46,410 nucleotides of DNA from a virus: positions 1 to 46,410 of IMG/VR virus record IMGVR_UViG_3300025769_000210. The stretch is one strand, 5' to 3'. The first letter of the stretch is position 1; each line of letters starts with the position of its first letter. The notes under the pieces are model-generated. The model had not been told where the DNA came from. It saw nothing but the letters and a program-made list of their open reading frames with translations, and ran no database searches. This document shows, piece by piece, positions 1 through 31,926 of the stretch. Both the position numbers and the translations under genes were made by a program.

Positions 1-791
1 GATACATAGTCCCAACTAAATGCGTTACTACCAACAGCAGAACCGTTAGCACTATAAATGACTGCTTTATTAGGAGCAGAAATTGTTAAGTTACCAGAAA
101 TGTTACCTATAAAATTAGGTGCTACAATGTTTGCTGTTGAAGTGACTACTCCATTGCCATCTGGTTGTAAATTAATATTACCATCTGTAGTTGTACTTGA
201 TATTGTAGTACCATCAAAGTTTAGATCGCCAATATTTGTGTTGCCGGGTAAGTTTGTAACGCCTGTTAAACCAATGTATCTATAACCAACTACATAAAGA
301 ACTTTGCCTGATGTAAGTGCAGTTGGAATTGTTTCTCCAATAAAGTTAAGTACACCTGATTGATAGTTAAAGTACCATTCACCTGTTCCACCTGAGCCTG
401 CGGCGAAGATTTGTGTACCTGTTGCTGTAGGATCAGCAACTCCTGAACTATCTACCCAAATTTGAACTTGGTAAGTAGCGCCAAATTCTGCTGGAATCCA
501 ATAAGTTAAATCAGTTTTCCATGTGGGGTAAACACTACCTATCGGTACTGTTGTATTATCTGCTGTACATTCTACTGCATTTGATCCTGTATATGCCTGA
601 ACAAGATTTGCAACTGCTGATGCAGTGCCGGGAATCTGATCCGCTTGTGTCCACATCGTGTCTCCACGAATAAGAAGAGGACTCGGAATAGATTCGTTAG
701 ACGGACTTTTATTGTCTTCCGTGTCTGTTTTTGTTACGCCAAATGCCTGTTTATAGAGCAGGTCGACTTTTTGATCTACTGGTATACTCAT
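1..791 (-). CDS. Tail-fibre-like structural protein, 3' end cut by window edge
   Basis: Open minus-strand frame from an ATG at 791 (MSIPVDQKVDLLYKQAFG) that runs off the left edge after about 263 codons, so the C-terminus is not seen. It starts 2 nt after the stop of the preceding fibre gene and has no strong Shine-Dalgarno, suggesting translational coupling. The N-terminal 100 residues look like a particle-attachment domain. Around residues 110-180 comes a segment with EWYFNYQSGVLNF and a Gly-rich stretch, followed by short beta-type repeats such as GNTNIGDLNFDGTTISSTT, rich in Asn, Gly, Thr and Ile. Such repeats are typical of long trimeric beta-helical fibres and whiskers of marine T4-like phages. 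The host receptor and exact particle position cannot be told. It could equally be a collar or decoration fibre. Confidence 0.7.
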   Translation of the reverse strand, partial: MSIPVDQKVDLLYKQAFGVTKTDTEDNKSPSNESIPSPLLIRGDTMWTQADQIPGTASAVANLVQAYTGSNAVECTADNTTVPIGSVYPTWKTDLTYWIPAEFGATYQVQIWVDSSGVADPTATGTQIFAAGSGGTGEWYFNYQSGVLNFIGETIPTALTSGKVLYVVGYRYIGLTGVTNLPGNTNIGDLNFDGTTISSTTTDGNINLQPDGNGVVTSTANIVAPNFIGNISGNLTISAPNKAVIYSANGSAVGSNAFSWDYV

Positions 792-4630: not shown

Positions 4631-4638
4631 TATAAATA
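4631..4638 (+). promoter_or_regulatory. Late promoter box TATAAATA, 5 nt from start codon
   Basis: Exact TATAAATA followed by TTTGT and then the ATG of the 120-aa gene at 4644. Late transcription normally begins about 6 nt after this box, so the transcript would start at or next to the ATG and be leaderless. The AGGAGA at 4618-4623 would be outside such a transcript. Confidence 0.7.
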
Positions 4639-4643
4639 TTTGT

Positions 4644-5006
4644 ATGATAACATCACAGCCTCACAGACCCTTTTGTAAAAAATGCAAATTTGCGTTGGCG
4701 AAACCCAATGGCAAAAGCAAACACGGTTTTCAAAAGTGGCATAGATATTGTGTAGATTGTGCTAAGGCTATGTACAATAAACGTTTCAGACATTTACAAC
4801 ATAAAACCACACACTGTGATAATTGTGGTTTTGTCCCAGAAGATTTGATTCAGTTAGATGTTGTATATAAAAACGGAAATACTAAAGATAAATCAACAGA
4901 CAACTTAATGACGCTGTGTGCTAATTGTAGCAGATTGTATAATAAAAAGATTAGAAGGAATAAAAAAATACTAGATTTGTCTGTAGACTCGGATATTACA
5001 ATTTGA
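4644..5006 (+). CDS. Small four-CxxC zinc-ribbon protein with degenerate HNH fold
   Basis: A 120-aa basic protein. Four CxxC pairs are visible: C11/C14, C36/C39, C58/C61 and C92/C95. The last two frame the segment LDVVYKNGNTKDKSTDNLMT, which has the layout of an HNH endonuclease core (LxVHHxDGNxxNNxxxNL, then CxxC). The catalytic His positions are replaced by Val and Tyr, so nuclease activity is doubtful. It may instead be a zinc-stabilised DNA- or RNA-binding protein. It is the only plus-strand gene in the first 16.8 kb, sits alone between fibre genes and an accessory operon, and overlaps the next gene's stop convergently by 11 bp. It has its own late box and would be expressed late. Other start codons nearby are absent. 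Function not established. Confidence 0.65.
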   Translation: MITSQPHRPFCKKCKFALAKPNGKSKHGFQKWHRYCVDCAKAMYNKRFRHLQHKTTHCDNCGFVPEDLIQLDVVYKNGNTKDKSTDNLMTLCANCSRLYNKKIRRNKKILDLSVDSDITI

Positions 5007-10917: not shown

Positions 10918-11148
10918 TTAAATGCTAGGAGCGCCTTCTGCTTCCGGCTTTGCTCCATACTGTTTTCTAACTTTTGCTAAATGTTTTGCCTTTTCATAAT
11001 TTCTTACATCTAACATTTTACGTAATTTACGAATTTGATGCAATGTAAGTTTTGTTTTACGTGAGGTTCTCCAGATAGGTTTAGAGTTGTCTGTTTCAAC
11101 ATCTTGGAATCCGGGAACGGGCGCATCAAACATTTCAGTTAATTTCAT
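10918..11148 (-). CDS. Small basic protein in the gp67 position, 76 aa
   Basis: Lies between the portal gene and the acidic core gene, exactly where T4 has gene 67. The sequence is basic in the middle (SRKTKLTLHQIRKLRKMLDV, residues about 29-48) and helical, whereas T4 gp67 is acidic, so this is a positional, not a sequence, match. It may be a core or portal-bound protein, and the basic helix could contact the acidic neighbour protein or DNA. A late box stands 5 nt before its ATG and no Shine-Dalgarno lies between, so a leaderless message is likely. Confidence 0.6.
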   Translation of the reverse strand: MKLTEMFDAPVPGFQDVETDNSKPIWRTSRKTKLTLHQIRKLRKMLDVRNYEKAKHLAKVRKQYGAKPEAEGAPSI

Positions 11149-11153
11149 AATAG

Positions 11154-11161
11154 TATTTATC
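11154..11161 (-). promoter_or_regulatory. Late promoter box GATAAATA, 5 nt from start codon
   Basis: Minus strand reads GATAAATACTATT then ATG. This matches the extended T4 late consensus TATAAATACTATT at all but the first base. Initiation about 6 nt after the box falls on the start codon of the 76-aa gene. Confidence 0.7.
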
Positions 11162-16781: not shown

Positions 16782-16811
16782 TACTAAATACTATGCTAAT
16801 TGTATTTAGTA
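16782..16811. promoter_or_regulatory. Face-to-face pair of late boxes (10-bp inverted repeat)
   Basis: TACTAAATAC at 16782-16791 and its exact reverse complement GTATTTAGTA at 16802-16811, 10 nt apart, in the 109-bp gap between the divergent tape-measure and gp26 genes. Each half is an ACTAAATA-type late box directed at the other, so the two transcripts would overlap by a few bases and then diverge. An element CCGGTTTTTCGG precedes the plus-strand box. An operator role for the palindrome is also possible. Confidence 0.65.
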
Positions 16812-18381: not shown

Positions 18382-18963
18382 TTAATAATCTACTGGTGTA
18401 GTTTTTATTGAGATAGACTTGGTGTCGGCTTCGTTTGACGTGGTGTCTGCTGTGCTTTTATTTGAGTATGATTTAAATAGTTCTTTGTTAAATTCAAAAA
18501 AGTGATCAAAACTGAATATAACCCAGTCAGCATGGTTGTCTGAGGTATAGTACATGAATTGATCACTTACAAATGTGTACCGACTAGGCACACATACAAA
18601 ACGCCCCTTACGATTAAATTTCATAAAGAGAACGTCAAAGTCTCCCTCTTCATGCACGTCCATTAACTGGTCGAGCCATTCTTCAAGTTGTCTGCAAGAA
18701 CCTGACAGAACTTGATGAAAAGGGAAATCTGCATAGAATTTACACTCAATGTTTAGTGCATCAAAACTTTGTCCAGGAACAATGTCTCCCTTAAAACTTC
18801 TGATCTGTCCTTCGTGTAAAATCTCTGTTCGATTTTGGTTTTTGCCACCGACATAAGCACCAGATCCGGGCGCCCTTATGAAACTTTCTCCATAAAGATC
18901 ACTAAGAAATTTTGCAACTTCTCTTTCAAATCCTGATCCTTTATTCTTAGATGGTGATGGCAT
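18382..18963 (-). CDS. PD-(D/E)XK family nuclease, Holliday-resolvase-like
   Basis: 193 aa. The N-terminal half carries a complete PD-(D/E)XK pattern: GSGFEREVAKFL with E13/E15, RAPGSGAY (30-37), FKGDIVPG with D60, and LNIECKFY with E73 and K75. RxPxSGA followed by GD and ExK is the layout of archaeal-type Holliday junction resolvases and related phage nucleases that cut DNA branches. The last 30 residues are Ser/Thr-rich and probably disordered. It is the last gene of the minus-strand 55-47-46-radical SAM run, so a role in recombination or in debranching DNA before packaging is reasonable. GGGAGA lies 12 nt before the ATG. The family call is fairly firm; the substrate is inferred. Confidence 0.75.
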   Translation of the reverse strand: MPSPSKNKGSGFEREVAKFLSDLYGESFIRAPGSGAYVGGKNQNRTEILHEGQIRSFKGDIVPGQSFDALNIECKFYADFPFHQVLSGSCRQLEEWLDQLMDVHEEGDFDVLFMKFNRKGRFVCVPSRYTFVSDQFMYYTSDNHADWVIFSFDHFFEFNKELFKSYSNKSTADTTSNEADTKSISIKTTPVDY

Positions 18964-18980
18964 TACTATTAATTATCTCC

Positions 18981-19994
18981 CTACCACTCAGTGGCATAAT
19001 TTTTTGTCACACGATAATGGGCGCATTTTGTTTGACACTCAAAAGAACCGTGTATAAACTCGGCATTCCAAAATTCTTCCTTCACAACTTCGGGTAAATT
19101 CTTTTTGTGTAGACTATATTTCTTGCCTACATCTTGCCATTTGTTATTGTGACCATATCGTGTTGCTACCCAACAACAGGGATAAAATTCTCCCCTGGCA
19201 TTTATGTATGCGCCTTTGTTGCCTATGTGACATAAAGGTCGCTCATTTCCTATTGTAGGTGCAACTTTTAATAAAGTTAAATTAGTACGCATCCAAGGCT
19301 CTAATAACTTTCTGTCAGACAATTTAAATACTTCTCTTTCAAATCGGTGACTAGATGCTATCAGTTTTTCAGATGGTTGTAAAGGGTCGTCTTTCCCATA
19401 GTGATCATAGACTTCACCAAACTTTGTACTCTTTGTTAATTGAAATGAGTCGAAACCTATTTCTTTAGCATAGGTTTTCATTTCTTCTAACATGTCTTCG
19501 TTAAATTTAAAACCTATTGCGTCCCAAACAGTCCAACAATTTGATTGTTGTGCCATAATAGTAGCACCACTGATAATACTAGACCAATTTGAATTTATTC
19601 TATATTTGTTATTGCTTTCTTGGTTCCATCCATCTATACTAAAATGTATTTGATCTTGTTCATCTAGTAATTCAGCAAGTTCTTGCCACCAACCGTCTGC
19701 TTTGTACGACCCGTTAGTAACTATAATAATTGCGATAGTGGGTTTAATTTCTTTAAAATATCTAATGACAGGGATAAAATCATGTGCATAGATCGGGTCA
19801 CCGTCATCACCACAAAATGTCAATTTTTCAACATTTCTAGTAATGAACCCTTTTGGAAAGTTTCTCTTAAAGAACTCTAAATCTAATTCTGTATTGACAA
19901 GTGTATCTGGTACTTCTTGTCTAGGGCATCTAGGGCACTTTAGTGTACACTTGCTACTAATTTCAATGTGCCAGTGCCACAGGGCTAAACTCAT
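18981..19994 (-). CDS. Radical SAM enzyme with SPASM-like C-terminal cysteines
   Basis: 337 aa. The canonical cluster motif CTLKCPRC gives C16, C20 and C23 for a 4Fe-4S cluster that cleaves S-adenosylmethionine. TFCGDDGDP (about 59-67) is the GGE-like SAM-binding motif, and IIIVTNGSY and IHFSIDG are the expected barrel strands. A C-terminal cysteine set (PLCHIGNKG, then YPCCW, then FECQTKC) resembles an auxiliary-cluster SPASM/twitch domain, as found in peptide- and protein-modifying members. The start overlaps the gp46 stop by ATGA, so the two are translationally coupled. The substrate is unknown. Radical SAM genes do occur in marine T4-like phages. Co-transcription with recombination nucleases does not by itself reveal the reaction. 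Confidence 0.85.
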   Translation of the reverse strand: MSLALWHWHIEISSKCTLKCPRCPRQEVPDTLVNTELDLEFFKRNFPKGFITRNVEKLTFCGDDGDPIYAHDFIPVIRYFKEIKPTIAIIIVTNGSYKADGWWQELAELLDEQDQIHFSIDGWNQESNNKYRINSNWSSIISGATIMAQQSNCWTVWDAIGFKFNEDMLEEMKTYAKEIGFDSFQLTKSTKFGEVYDHYGKDDPLQPSEKLIASSHRFEREVFKLSDRKLLEPWMRTNLTLLKVAPTIGNERPLCHIGNKGAYINARGEFYPCCWVATRYGHNNKWQDVGKKYSLHKKNLPEVVKEEFWNAEFIHGSFECQTKCAHYRVTKNYATEW

Positions 19995-21760
19995 AAGTGT
20001 TCCATTTCCCTAGAAGTGTTATATGTAGTAAACCCGTTTTCTTTAACAACTTGCAAAACACTTGGAACACGACCTGCAAGTTCTTCTCTGTGAGATACAA
20101 GCCAAATTGACTTGTTACGTCTACGTGACATATCTTTAAGAATAGCCATAGCATTCTCAACACCGATAGTATCTAAACCAGAGTCAATTAACTCGTCAAT
20201 AAACAAAGTATTGATTGGGAAATATAAGTTTTCCCACACGTCTCTGAATGCAAATGACAATCCTAAGATCAGTCTATTTCGCTCACCTCTTGACAAGTTA
20301 TCAAAATCTAGTTCTCTGCCTAACTCTGTAATTTCTACACTCAAATCATTTAAGAATACAACTTGATGTGGTAGACCCATCTTATCTAAGTAATGTGTAA
20401 GCCTACCATTTAGATAAGATAAGTTTTGATCAATAATCTTTTTACGCACAAATGAATCTTTACTTGTTAACAAGTCCAATAAGAATTTTTGATGATCACC
20501 AATGCGTGATAATTCGTTTATTTTATCAAAATTAACTTCTTGTAACGCCTGTGATTGCATATCTTCGATTTGATCTGTATACGGATTCGTATCATTCTCT
20601 CTTTGATCGATTTGTTGTAATAAATTATCTACTTTATTTCTATGTTCAAAGGCTTCTTGTTCTGTATCATAATATAGTTTTGGCAAAGACCCGATATCCC
20701 CGATCTTTTCTTTTTCTTTTTCACATTCGACATAAAATTCTGCTAAATCAACTGTGCGTTCATTGGCTTCTTCTAGTAATTTTTCTTTGTCTACCAATAT
20801 GTTAGCATGACTATCATCGTGGAAATCTTGACCACAAGCATAACATTTATTAGTACGTAATGTCTCAATTTCTTTTTCTAATTTAGTAACAGATTTAGAT
20901 TCTTTATCTAAATCTGACCTAGTTCTTTGCATCGTTTTATCGATATCTTCGTGTTCTTTCTTACGTTGATTGTATGTACTAAGTTCTTTGTGGCCAAGTA
21001 ATTCGGCTTCAATATCCAAAGTTTTGAGTACTTCTAGTTCTTCTTTTAACTTTAAAATATCTTCATTTTTCTTGGCATCCCATAGTTTAGCACGTTTAAC
21101 TAAAGAATCAATTTGTTCATGTATTCTTTTGTTTGCTTCTTCTATGGCTTTGATTTTAAATTCTTCTTGTTGCAAATCTTCTTTATTTGCTTTAATTTTA
21201 ATCTTAATTTGTTCTGCTTTTTCAGACAATAATGTAATACCCAACAACTGCTCAATAACATCACGCTGTTGTCCTTGAGTCATGCTTAAGAATGGTTGAC
21301 TATATGTGTTTAGTGCTACAATGTTTCTAAACATTGTAGGAGAAATATTAATAATCTTGTCTATAACACCCTGTGTTTCTTTGTTTTCACCTTGGGCTTC
21401 ATTATCTTCTTCGTTATTGTGACCATTAATAAAGAATTTTAAACTGTGTGGTTTACGACCACGTTCAATACGATATTCTATACCGTTAACAACAAAATCT
21501 AATGTCACTAACATGCCTTTACCGTTAGTTCTATTAATAAGATTGTTTTGTTTGATGTTGTTTAAGGCAGTACCATATAGTGCATAACTAATGGCTTGAA
21601 TTAGTGTAGTTTTACCTGTGCCGTTTCTTGCACCGTCTCCACCTAAGTCTAAGTTCTCACCTAATATAAGGGTAAGTTCTTGGTTGTGCAGGTCGATTGC
21701 TTGTGTAACCGACCCAACACTTAAAAAATTTCTTAGTGTAATATTCTTTAGTTGTATCAT
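19991..21760 (-). CDS. gp46: Recombination endonuclease subunit gp46 (Rad50/SbcC-like ATPase)
   Basis: 589 aa (T4: 560). SMC-type ATPase that with gp47 resects DNA ends for recombination-dependent replication and helps degrade host DNA. The Walker A is ARNGTGKTT (44-52) but is preceded by an extra loop GENLDLGGDG, so the usual GxNGxGK motif is expanded. A long coiled coil carries a zinc hook KCYACGQDF near residue 303. The ABC signature NLSRGERNRLILGL is near 482-495 and the Walker B TLFIDELIDSG near 515-525. The start overlaps the gp47 stop by ATGA. Length, motif order and coupling to gp47 make this firm. Confidence 0.95.
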   Translation of the reverse strand: MIQLKNITLRNFLSVGSVTQAIDLHNQELTLILGENLDLGGDGARNGTGKTTLIQAISYALYGTALNNIKQNNLINRTNGKGMLVTLDFVVNGIEYRIERGRKPHSLKFFINGHNNEEDNEAQGENKETQGVIDKIINISPTMFRNIVALNTYSQPFLSMTQGQQRDVIEQLLGITLLSEKAEQIKIKIKANKEDLQQEEFKIKAIEEANKRIHEQIDSLVKRAKLWDAKKNEDILKLKEELEVLKTLDIEAELLGHKELSTYNQRKKEHEDIDKTMQRTRSDLDKESKSVTKLEKEIETLRTNKCYACGQDFHDDSHANILVDKEKLLEEANERTVDLAEFYVECEKEKEKIGDIGSLPKLYYDTEQEAFEHRNKVDNLLQQIDQRENDTNPYTDQIEDMQSQALQEVNFDKINELSRIGDHQKFLLDLLTSKDSFVRKKIIDQNLSYLNGRLTHYLDKMGLPHQVVFLNDLSVEITELGRELDFDNLSRGERNRLILGLSFAFRDVWENLYFPINTLFIDELIDSGLDTIGVENAMAILKDMSRRRNKSIWLVSHREELAGRVPSVLQVVKENGFTTYNTSREMEHL

Positions 21761-22773
21761 AGGCTTTGATATATCTCTAATAGCACACCTTTATCATAGA
21801 ATTCACTTTCTATGTTTTTAATTTGATCAATGATAATGCTATCCACACTTTCAAATGATAGTTCACCAGGTGCAAGATCATTAGCATGTTCATCTGACTT
21901 AATCGGAATCAATGCCATTTCTCGCAACTGGTGTTTTGGTATTAACGTTTCTCTAATAAAGTTGGCTTCTTCATAAGAAATGTCAATATCTAAATGAACT
22001 CTAACATGACTGTCAGGTAAAAGCAAGCCTTCTGGGTTATCCAAAACCTCACTTAATTTGTATACTCTATATTTGGGTTGATTTGGCCATGAATGAAATT
22101 CAGGTTCTTTGTCCCACTCTAAAATCATCATACCTCTGGCATCGTCACCTGCGTCTGCATAGTTGTGTGGGAAAGCATTACCTATGTACCAAACGTTTTT
22201 GCGTGATTGTCTTTTATGAAAGTGACCAGAGAATGCCCATTCAAACTGTGATAGATAATCGGTGTTAAGTTCTCCGTGATCCGGCATTTCGATCATAGCA
22301 TTCATATAGAAATAGGGCAATTCTAAATGACCAAAAAGATATTTGCCTTTTTTCTTTTTAAGTTGCTTGTAATCATCATTGACTAACCACGGGGCAATAA
22401 CACAATCTCCCTCTTCGAACCAATCATTAACAATTGTAATGTTTGGTAAATGGGTAGCCCATTCTACTGAGTGAATGTCTCTTTTGTCTCTATAATAAAG
22501 GTCATGATTGCCCGGAATAAAATACACTTTGTTAAATGCATCATTTAGTTTCTCTAATGCTTTGAGACCAAACTGCATAGTGTGCATGTTGATACTGGAT
22601 CTATGATGATTCCAGTCACCTAAAAAGAAACATGTCTCACAATCGTTCTCTTTTGCTTTTTCTATAAACCAGTCAACAAAATTAGAACAATCTTGGTTAT
22701 GAACCAAACTGTTACTTTTTAAACCAAAGTGTATGTCTGTAAAAACTGCCGCTTTATCAAAAAGATTAGCCAT
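21757..22773 (-). CDS. gp47: Recombination endonuclease subunit gp47 (Mre11/SbcD-like)
   Basis: 338 aa, as T4 gp47 (339). Metallophosphoesterase nuclease acting with gp46. All phosphoesterase motifs are present: TDIHFG (D13, H15), GDWNHH (D53, N55), GNHD (N89, H90), GHLE (H149) and SGHFHKR (H184, H186). The W54 in motif II replaces the usual variable residue without loss of metal ligands. The C-terminal 100 residues form the cap that contacts gp46. Upstream ribosome-binding sequence is weak (GGGTAAG). The 68-bp gap to gp55 contains a TTGTAAcTTACAA palindrome near 22800-22812 but no convincing promoter. Confidence 0.95.
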   Translation of the reverse strand: MANLFDKAAVFTDIHFGLKSNSLVHNQDCSNFVDWFIEKAKENDCETCFFLGDWNHHRSSINMHTMQFGLKALEKLNDAFNKVYFIPGNHDLYYRDKRDIHSVEWATHLPNITIVNDWFEEGDCVIAPWLVNDDYKQLKKKKGKYLFGHLELPYFYMNAMIEMPDHGELNTDYLSQFEWAFSGHFHKRQSRKNVWYIGNAFPHNYADAGDDARGMMILEWDKEPEFHSWPNQPKYRVYKLSEVLDNPEGLLLPDSHVRVHLDIDISYEEANFIRETLIPKHQLREMALIPIKSDEHANDLAPGELSFESVDSIIIDQIKNIESEFYDKGVLLEIYQSL

Positions 22774-22841: not shown

Positions 22842-23783
22842 TTAATATTCTGCCTGCTCTGCTAGATTGGTAGCACTGTCAAAACTCATACCAGACATTT
22901 GTCTAGTAAATGAAGGATTCAACCCGTTCATTTCTAAAATATCGTCTCTGATATTTTGGTTGCGTTTTTCAGAGTTAAGAACTCTACAGAAACTATTTGT
23001 AATTGCCGCAGTATAATATGCGAATGGATTTGCTGACTTGGCTTCATTAAATCTCAAGCCTACATAAGTCAACTGAAGAATAGCACTTTGTCGCATTTCA
23101 TCGTTGTATGTGTAACCGCGCCAATTGAATTTCATGGCGTACTTTTCACATAACATAATATACATACGTGCTAGTTTGTCAGTGATGTTACCTGCTTTAG
23201 TAGTAAACTCACCAGTTTTGACTCCACCTTTCCAGTGCGATTTGCCAACTAACACTAAAGAGTTAGTTTCTGCATCTAAACGATAATGTTGAAAAGGAGG
23301 AAAATTAACTTTAACATGGACTAAATCATCGATTTCCTTCTTTGTTTTCTTGTCTTCTAAATCATCAAACAAGTTGTCTGCTGGATCTAACTCATCTTCA
23401 AAATCAATAATGTCTACTACTGTTTTCTTTTTGACAACCTTTCTAGGTTGTTTTTTAGACAATGGAATATGATCCCAGGTCATTACCCTAAAAATTAATC
23501 CGTCGGTTTCAATAGTCTTTGGGTCAATTTTGTTTTGTCCTGTCAGGCCTTGCTCTGCTGATAACCTAGCCGCTTTATTTTCTTTTGCTTGTTGTATATT
23601 TGTTTTCTTAAGACACATGGGCAGAGACTTCTCTAATGGAGTCTCTGGAGTGACATCAATGATCATGTCATATTGATGATATTCCTTTTTTGTAAACGAG
23701 CAATATGAAGTTTTGCTTGCGTGAATTTCTTTTAGTATGTCTTTGTTATTTAAATAGTTAACTGGTTTTTTTGCAACTGCCAT
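22842..23783 (-). CDS. gp55: Late sigma factor gp55-like, with long N-terminal extension
   Basis: 313 aa against 185 in T4. The C-terminal third is sigma-region-2-like: LARMYIMLCEKYAMKFNWRG, then DEMRQSAILQLTYVGLRFNE, then NPFAYYTAAITNSFCRVLNS, which follows the T4 gp55 plan (NPFAYFT-type core). Residues 1-180 are an added domain: a segment NNKDILKEIHASKTSYCSFT, a charged linker with DFEDELDPADNLFDDLED (about 127-145) and a KVNFPPFQHYR strand. Its role is unknown; it might bind polymerase or a co-activator. gp55 directs polymerase to the TATAAATA boxes found throughout this window. GAGGAA precedes the ATG. It is served by a sigma70-type promoter and a facing late box, so it may activate itself. 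Confidence 0.82.
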   Translation of the reverse strand: MAVAKKPVNYLNNKDILKEIHASKTSYCSFTKKEYHQYDMIIDVTPETPLEKSLPMCLKKTNIQQAKENKAARLSAEQGLTGQNKIDPKTIETDGLIFRVMTWDHIPLSKKQPRKVVKKKTVVDIIDFEDELDPADNLFDDLEDKKTKKEIDDLVHVKVNFPPFQHYRLDAETNSLVLVGKSHWKGGVKTGEFTTKAGNITDKLARMYIMLCEKYAMKFNWRGYTYNDEMRQSAILQLTYVGLRFNEAKSANPFAYYTAAITNSFCRVLNSEKRNQNIRDDILEMNGLNPSFTRQMSGMSFDSATNLAEQAEY

Positions 23784-23834
23784 TAAAGTTCCTCTTTGTT
23801 GTTGTTAATCTTATTGCAAGATTGGTATGAGATT

Positions 23835-23863
23835 ATTATACGCATTGCTAACGATGAAAGCAA
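23835..23863 (-). promoter_or_regulatory. Sigma70-type promoter for gp55
   Basis: Minus strand has a perfect -10 TATAAT (23840-23835), 17 nt after a weak -35 TTGCTT (23863-23858). It lies about 52 nt before the gp55 start. It would let host polymerase make the late sigma factor before late transcription begins. Confidence 0.68.
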
Positions 23864-23898
23864 GTGTAACGGGTAAAAAAATGCGGTTTTTTGGTTTC

Positions 23899-23929
23899 GA
23901 TAAATATATCATGTAGCAAACTATTTATC
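23899..23929. promoter_or_regulatory. Face-to-face late boxes GATAAATA / TATTTATC
   Basis: GATAAATA at 23899-23906 (toward the plus-strand tube-like gene) and its exact reverse complement at 23922-23929 (toward gp55), 15 nt apart. An interleaved CATGTA / TACATG repeat (23910-23915, 23931-23936) adds symmetry. CGGTTTTTTGG begins 15 nt before the plus-strand box, the same spacing as at gp6. Confidence 0.7.
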
Positions 23930-23970
23930 ATACATGAATATGAGCATAAGAATAAACGGAGAACCACTAC

Positions 23971-24735
23971 GTGACAGATCCAACTACTAACACAGACGGT
24001 TTCAATGCCGCCGCTGATTGGCGTGTAAGAATGAAACTAGGCGATGATGCTTATTATCTTTATAAGAACGCAAACGTGCCTGGCATTCTGAAACCCTTAA
24101 TAGCAACTGACGGAGTTGTTTTCCCCTACACACCTCAAATTAATGTAGCATATACTGCGTCATATGATTCTGTTGGCCCGACTCATAGTAACTATAAAAT
24201 ACATCACTATCAAAATAGTGCAGTAGACAATATTTCTATCACAGCAGACTTTACTTGTCAGGACACGTTTGAAGCAAACTATCTATTGGCATGTATCCAC
24301 TTTTTTAAATCTATGACCAAGATGTTTTATGGACAAGATCAAAACCCTAAAATTGGAACTCCTCCCCCGGTGGCATTTTTGTTTGGATTAGGTGCGTTTC
24401 AATTTAATAATCACCCGCTAATTATTACTAACTTTCAGTACAATTTGCCCAAAGACGTTGACTATATTCGTGCAACCAATACAGCAGATGCGACAGACAC
24501 TAGTACGTTAGCATTGATTGGAGGACAACTGGAACCAGGCGGAACTAGACCAGTTGCAACATTTACAGATACGCAGGATCAAAAAATTACATATGTTCCT
24601 ACAAAAATAACATTAACAATTACTTGTTTACCAGTCGTTAGCAGGAATGACATCAGTAACAGATTTAGTCTCAAAGACTATGCTTCAGGAAATCTAATGA
24701 TAGGTGATCAAGGTACTAACCCGGGATTATGGTAA
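23971..24735 (+). CDS. Tail-tube-like baseplate protein (gp48/gp54 or gp19 type), 254 aa
   Basis: Starts at a GTG with CGGAG 9 nt upstream; no good ATG is nearby. Blocks ADWRVRMKLGDDAYYLYKNA, VFPYTPQINVAYTASYDSVG (about 50-69), then FFKSMTKMFYGQ and NPKIGTPPPVAFLFGLGAFQ are of the type I associate with marine T4-like baseplate proteins related to the tail tube. It heads the plus-strand baseplate cluster (53, hub, 5, 25, 6), so a tube-baseplate junction protein (gp48/gp54-like) fits better than the major tube gp19, which is shorter (163 aa in T4) and normally lies by the sheath gene. The tube fold itself is an inference. A facing late promoter precedes it. Confidence 0.6.
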   Translation: MTDPTTNTDGFNAAADWRVRMKLGDDAYYLYKNANVPGILKPLIATDGVVFPYTPQINVAYTASYDSVGPTHSNYKIHHYQNSAVDNISITADFTCQDTFEANYLLACIHFFKSMTKMFYGQDQNPKIGTPPPVAFLFGLGAFQFNNHPLIITNFQYNLPKDVDYIRATNTADATDTSTLALIGGQLEPGGTRPVATFTDTQDQKITYVPTKITLTITCLPVVSRNDISNRFSLKDYASGNLMIGDQGTNPGLW

Positions 24736-31454: not shown

Positions 31455-31462
31455 AATAAATA
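31455..31462 (+). promoter_or_regulatory. Late promoter box AATAAATA, 5 nt from gp25 start
   Basis: AATAAATA then GTATC then ATG. Spacing is identical to the boxes at 4631 and 11154. Late initiation here would give a leaderless gp25 message. On read-through transcripts from gp5, the CGGGA at 31451-31454 could serve as a distant ribosome site. Confidence 0.6.
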
Positions 31463-31467
31463 GTATC

Positions 31468-31926
31468 ATGGCAAAATACATAGGATTTTCTACAAAAAAC
31501 GCAAATAAGACTAGAACTTATTCCACAACCACTACTCGTTATAATACAGTAGGCGACGGAATAATTCCTCAAGGTGGCATAGTATTTGGAAAAAAGTTTC
31601 GTCTTACCGATGCAAGTTTAATTATACAAGATTTTGTTAATGCATTGAATATACGTAAGGGCGAAAAAGTAGGAAAACCTAACTACGGCACAACTCTTTG
31701 GGACTTTGTATTTGAACCTAATACTATTGATGTTGTTAATGCAATACAAAACGAAGTTCGTAGAGTAGCATCATTAGATCCTCGTCTTTATGTAAACACA
31801 GTTAGTGTATATACCAAAGAAAATGGCATTTTATTAGCAATGCAGTTGTCCGTTGATCCCTTCGTTACTGCCAATGATTTAGCGGTGTTCTTTGACCAAG
31901 GCTCAAACACTGCGTACACTGTCTAA
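31468..31926 (+). CDS. gp25: Baseplate wedge / sheath initiator gp25
   Basis: 152 aa (T4: 132). gp25 nucleates sheath polymerisation on the wedge. The typical lysozyme-like fold block is seen: DFVNALNIRKGEKVGKPNYG (about 54-73), then TTLWDFVFEPNTIDVVNAIQ (74-93) carrying the EP core of the family's EPR motif, then EVRRVASLDPRLYVNTVSVY. A polar N-terminal arm (about 45 residues) is longer than in T4. Located between gp5 and gp6. Confidence 0.93.
   Translation: MAKYIGFSTKNANKTRTYSTTTTRYNTVGDGIIPQGGIVFGKKFRLTDASLIIQDFVNALNIRKGEKVGKPNYGTTLWDFVFEPNTIDVVNAIQNEVRRVASLDPRLYVNTVSVYTKENGILLAMQLSVDPFVTANDLAVFFDQGSNTAYTV

Follow-up and report, generated by a model that had tools for sequence, protein, structure and literature searches.

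The locus analyzed here raises the question of why late-promoter boxes should stand face to face where the gene for a late sigma factor diverges from a virion gene. The window, meaning the whole stretch of 46,410 bases, is a virus record from a T4-related phage. It carries a gp55-like late sigma factor gene on the minus strand and a divergent virion structural gene on the plus strand. The sequence-only reading of this DNA had proposed that the box pair between them allows gp55 to activate its own gene. The evidence assembled below favors a somewhat different role, namely a two-way late promoter that may serve the whole gene cluster headed by gp55.

Late boxes at the gp55 divergence

The pair is present at 23899-23929 as the sequence-only reading described it, and coordinates and strand confirm that the minus box faces gp55. 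Two GATAAATA boxes form an inverted repeat with a gap of exactly 15 nt. The surrounding genes and the other features discussed below are collected in Table 1.

Table 1. Coordinates of the features discussed, in the window and in T4-group genomes
Genome	Feature	Position	Strand	Remarks
Window	Second face-to-face pair, ACTAAATA-12-TATTTAGT	16783-16790 (+), 16810-16803 (-)	+ and -	tape measure/hub divergence; gap 12
Window	RusA-like Holliday junction resolvase	18382-18963	-	phrog_244; last in gp55-strand cluster
Window	Radical SAM protein	18981-19994	-	phrog_21308
Window	gp46-like (SbcC-like) nuclease subunit	19991-21760	-	phrog_77; order shared with relatives
Window	gp47-like (SbcD-like) nuclease subunit	21757-22773	-	phrog_100; order shared with relatives
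Window	gp55-like late sigma factor	22842-23783	-	phrog_12791, E 7e-72
Window	Sigma70-type promoter, TTGCTT-17-TATAAT	-35 23863-23858, -10 23840-23835	-	between minus box and gp55
Window	Late box GATAAATA facing virion gene	23899-23906	+	predicted start ~23912
Window	Late box GATAAATA facing gp55	23929-23922	-	predicted start ~23916
Window	Divergent virion structural (tube-like) gene	23971-24735	+	phrog_12050; GTG start
T4, RB69, RB49	Facing pair, genes 4/53	77349-77371 (T4, NC_000866)		TATAAATA-type in T4
S-PM2	Facing pair, gp4 and its neighbor
T4	Facing pair, inh/segE	112021-112042 (NC_000866)		TATAAATA-type
RB69, RB49	Facing pair, inh/uvsW
KVP40	Facing pair, gene next to inh and uvsW
Aeh1	Facing pair, rnh/34

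The named phages nearest by gp55 are jumbo phages such as Phosso, PA5oct, Atu_ph07 and 121Q. A scan using Atu_ph07 gp55 as the query returned Atu_ph07 gp55 itself as the sole match. Of gp55, gp33 and gp45, only gp55 was recognized in the window.

Late boxes are documented at positions -13 to -6, with the variants TATAAATA (T4 type), CTAAATA (Aeh1) and NATAAATA (S-PM2) (PMC1524935, PMC2984593). The window boxes resemble the T4-type late promoters: they belong to that octamer family, they precede virion genes, and the genome around them encodes a gp55 relative. The exact GATAAATA octamer is not enriched across the 46,410 bases (4 copies against 3.1 expected); all four copies are intergenic and upstream of a same-strand gene. 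TATAAATA-like boxes of the form N[AC]TAAATA were found upstream of late genes in the window and in its relatives, and single boxes of the late type also precede other late genes of the window. When the T4 rule for the box position (PMC1524935) is applied to both boxes of the pair, the predicted rightward and leftward RNAs overlap by about 5 nt.

Elsewhere in the window, at 4631-4644, 31455-31468 and 11148-11161, a late box ends exactly 6 nt before an ATG, which places the predicted start on the A of the ATG. Leaderless late mRNAs were dropped as an explanation, the 6-nt box-to-ATG spacing not being enriched in the clade.

Conservation in related loci

Related gp55 loci were retrieved (80 in total, L001-L080), of which 76 had sufficient upstream DNA for scoring of N[AC]TAAATA boxes 60-220 nt upstream of gp55. 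First-order Markov shuffles served as the null. A gp55-facing box was present in 74 of the 76 loci, against an average of 5.2 in the shuffles, which never exceeded 12, and the opposite, virion-facing box was likewise present in 74/76. A chance origin of the pair was ruled out by the shuffles.

The arrangement of the two boxes varied. Among the 72 scored pairs, 50 were face to face with offsets of 8-24, corresponding to gaps of 0-16, and 22 were back to back, including two with boxes 32 nt apart. As the boxes persist while their spacing and order vary, each is kept as a unit, in the manner of separate promoters. The back-to-back pairs also indicate that a shared start is not essential at the gp55 site.

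A GGTAAA motif (TTTACY in the gp55 sense) was seen no more than 45 nt upstream of the virion-facing box in 64/76 loci (7.6 in the shuffles). It lies exactly 19 nt upstream, a -35-like position, in 52 of the 76 window-clade loci and 21 nt upstream in the window itself (23872-23877). The motif was absent from this region in the PA5oct and 121Q groups. A T4-type late promoter is not expected to need a -35 element.

Facing pairs at other divergent borders

The sequence-only reading had counted the gp55 pair as the second of its kind, the other presumably being the ACTAAATA pair at 16783-16810. Face-to-face pairs are expected 2.0 times by the null in 861 kb of related loci, or about 0.1 per 46 kb, and the window has two. 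Against the same expectation, the relatives contain 31 such pairs away from gp55, all of which map to the tape-measure/hub divergence, 5.8-6.9 kb past the start of gp55. Scoring of the hub divergence gave a pair in 33 related loci (offsets 14-22) and no pair in three distant hub loci, the remaining related loci being truncated.

Facing pairs likewise occur at divergent gene borders in T4, RB69, RB49, KVP40, S-PM2 and Aeh1. In these six genomes the pattern MTAAATA-N5..16-TATTTAK gave 9 matches compared with 1 for the reversed control. Each of the nine falls in the intergenic space between two divergent genes. The pairs serve gene 4 with 53 (or the S-PM2 neighbor), inh (or the KVP40 neighbor) with uvsW or segE, and rnh with 34. 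In T4, uvsW, which adjoins one of the T4 pairs, is expressed from a late promoter (PMC3016281). The window pair differs from those of the T4 group in that one arm would read the sigma factor's own cluster.

It is gaps of 5-16 that are enriched in the six T4-group genomes. Face-to-face pairs with gaps of 0-4 numbered 0 against 0 in the control and those with gaps of 17-45 numbered 3 against 1, while back-to-back pairs numbered 8 in both. The shorter pattern TAAATA-N5..16-TATTTA showed no clear enrichment over the control in whole genomes, which makes the outer letters of the box important. At offsets of 14-24 the predicted starts coincide within about 5 bp.

The idea that the pair is special to gp55 was rejected, since the tape/hub divergence and divergences in T4-type phages have pairs too. 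In the window clade a second divergent late border is usually built as a facing pair, as divergent borders in T4-like phages usually are. The pair would be a T4-superfamily form of two-way late promoter, with predicted starts that nearly coincide. A literature search, which was not exhaustive, found no description of facing late-box pairs.

Bacterial bidirectional promoters, as described by Warman and colleagues (PMC12825309), offer a likeness: short symmetric DNA on which a single polymerase at a time binds, either way round, and makes divergent RNAs. Their starts flank a shared -10 or fall inside it, commonly 10, 18 or 23 bp apart and most often 18 (PMC12825309). The window pair has the reverse layout. 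Rather than one shared -10, it has two separate, whole -10 boxes flanking a common predicted start region in which the predicted starts overlap, and in some relatives the boxes are back to back.

Outgroups and the resolvase strand

At the same divergence, 121Q, PA5oct, Hallingskeid, Vibrio 2.275 and most PA5oct-side contigs carry the virion-facing box only. As these outgroups keep the virion-facing box and mostly lack the other, a gain on the gp55 side is indicated. A FastTree phylogeny of 135 gp55 proteins gave six box-state changes as scored, with the window clade forming one branch (support 99). A second group with the gp55-facing box (L103 and L118-L123) falls on the PA5oct side of the tree.

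In the records scored, the presence of the box is linked to the strand of the resolvase gene, which was read by hand from match coordinates. The window-clade order is gp55-gp47-gp46-(radical SAM)-RusA, and in 61/61 window-clade loci where a RusA-like resolvase was found, it follows gp46 on the strand of gp55. L103 and L121 also combine a resolvase on the gp55 strand with a gp55-facing box. A resolvase, RusA-like or endonuclease VII, is encoded opposite to gp55 in 17 PA5oct-side or other records and 17 121Q-side records. None of these 34 has an intergenic gp55-facing box, the box matches scored in L131 and L084 falling inside the neighboring gene. Among the records in which the strand is readable, the gp55-facing box is thus found only with the resolvase on the gp55 strand.

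Two further same-strand lineages are without the gp55-facing box. In L127 and L128 the resolvase itself is immediately preceded by a late box, CATAAATA, and in L126 it has only a weak TTTAAATA in front. The link is incomplete at L126 and in records where the box is present and no resolvase was found, namely L118, L119, L122 and L123, some of them short or cut off not far past gp46, and L124 and L096, which have box matches. The independent changes behind the link are few, with two groups that carry the box and the two other same-strand lineages. As its presence tracks the resolvase strand, the gp55-facing box seems to keep the cluster, including the resolvase, on late in infection.

These results bear directly on the proposal that the minus box was selected for early-to-late positive feedback on gp55. 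Self-activation may be physically feasible, as a late box together with an early promoter is the anatomy needed. Several parts of the proposal held: the boxes are late-like, the minus box faces gp55 and is kept in 74/76 relatives with a conserved sigma70-type promoter nearer the gene. The box of the second phage group also counts in its favor. Against it, the pair is not confined to gp55, outgroup gp55 genes at the same divergence are mostly without the box, and its presence goes with the resolvase strand. In T4, no late box lies on the strand of gp55 within 1500 nt of the gene. Where both were scorable, the box occurs only with a same-strand resolvase, an indication of late supply of the downstream operon. 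Feedback on gp55 would accompany such supply without necessarily being the selected trait. Selection for feedback is considered unlikely, and self-activation is probably not the main point of the gp55-facing box. The switch is also unlikely to be simple, as had been suggested, since T4-type late transcription also makes use of gp33, of the gp45 clamp and of replication in progress (PMC2988020). The same jumbo-phage divergence with and without the gp55-facing box, linked to the resolvase strand, provides a natural experiment on late gp55 control.

Two other explanations fare worse. The plus box alone might be a promoter, with the minus box an unused by-product of A+T-rich symmetry and gp55 made from the sigma70-type promoter only. 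Outgroups do manage without the minus box, and -10-like sequences are partly symmetric, as reported for sigma70 promoters (PMC12825309). Nevertheless, the gp55-facing box is kept in 74/76 relatives, against about 5 expected, despite shifting spacing, and this explanation is very improbable. Least probable of all is that the inverted repeat formed by the boxes is a repressor operator or hairpin element instead of two promoters, a possibility rejected because spacing (0-16 nt) and order (opposite in 22/72 pairs) differ between relatives and single boxes of the same type precede other late genes of the window.

A proposed two-way late promoter for the gp55 operon

The preferred reading, to which we assign a probability of roughly two in three, is that the pair is a bidirectional late promoter that would keep a gp55-47-46-RusA operon on late in infection, an arrangement that includes gp55 feedback. 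RNA polymerase carrying gp55 would read the two T4-type late -10 boxes, which surround a nearly shared predicted start. One polymerase at a time would occupy the site, in either orientation, and the two directions would exclude each other. Leftward, the sigma70-type promoter (23863-23835) is predicted to make the first gp55 early. Once late transcription has started, the gp55-facing box would keep gp55, gp47, gp46, the radical SAM gene and RusA on, perhaps as a single transcript. The selected benefit is likely to be that the recombination and resolvase genes are supplied late, and positive feedback on gp55 would accompany this supply. Feedback on gp55 and supply of the operon are not mutually exclusive.

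An early and a late promoter upstream of one gene have likewise been proposed for middle genes in RB49 and S-PM2 (PMC2984593). Those pairs concern relatives of T4 middle genes, whereas in the window the gene is gp55 itself and its late box faces that of a virion gene.

A broader version of the two-way late promoter is put forward tentatively, at somewhat less than even odds. It describes an inside-out bidirectional promoter of the T4 superfamily, in which two facing late -10 boxes, usually 5-16 nt apart, would use one common start and the orientation of the polymerase would balance the two sides of divergent late borders. In the window lineage this device would have been extended to the sigma-factor cluster when the resolvase moved onto that strand. 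A coincident-start layout is permitted by promoters that need no -35. The general rule is testable: divergent T4-like late borders should carry facing boxes with predicted starts within about 5 bp.

The predicted early promoter of gp55

The separate TATAAT promoter that the sequence-only reading placed before gp55 is found where it was described. A promoter of the form TTGnnn-16..18-TAnnnT occurs in 77/79 related gp55 leaders, compared with a mean of 13.3 and a maximum of 21 in the shuffles. A simple consensus scan omits the window promoter, its -35 having 3/6 matches, and support for it therefore comes from conservation.

The inverted repeat GTTGC-N5..8-GCAAC overlaps the sigma70-type -35 in 28/79 loci (about 0 in the shuffles) and was not found at the gp55 promoter in the PA5oct or 121Q groups. 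It is possibly an operator on the early promoter. L001, whose gp55 is identical to that of the window, has a short differing block matching window positions 23822-23845, at and downstream of the -10. Its -10 reads TATACT instead of the TATAAT of the window, and both late boxes are unchanged.
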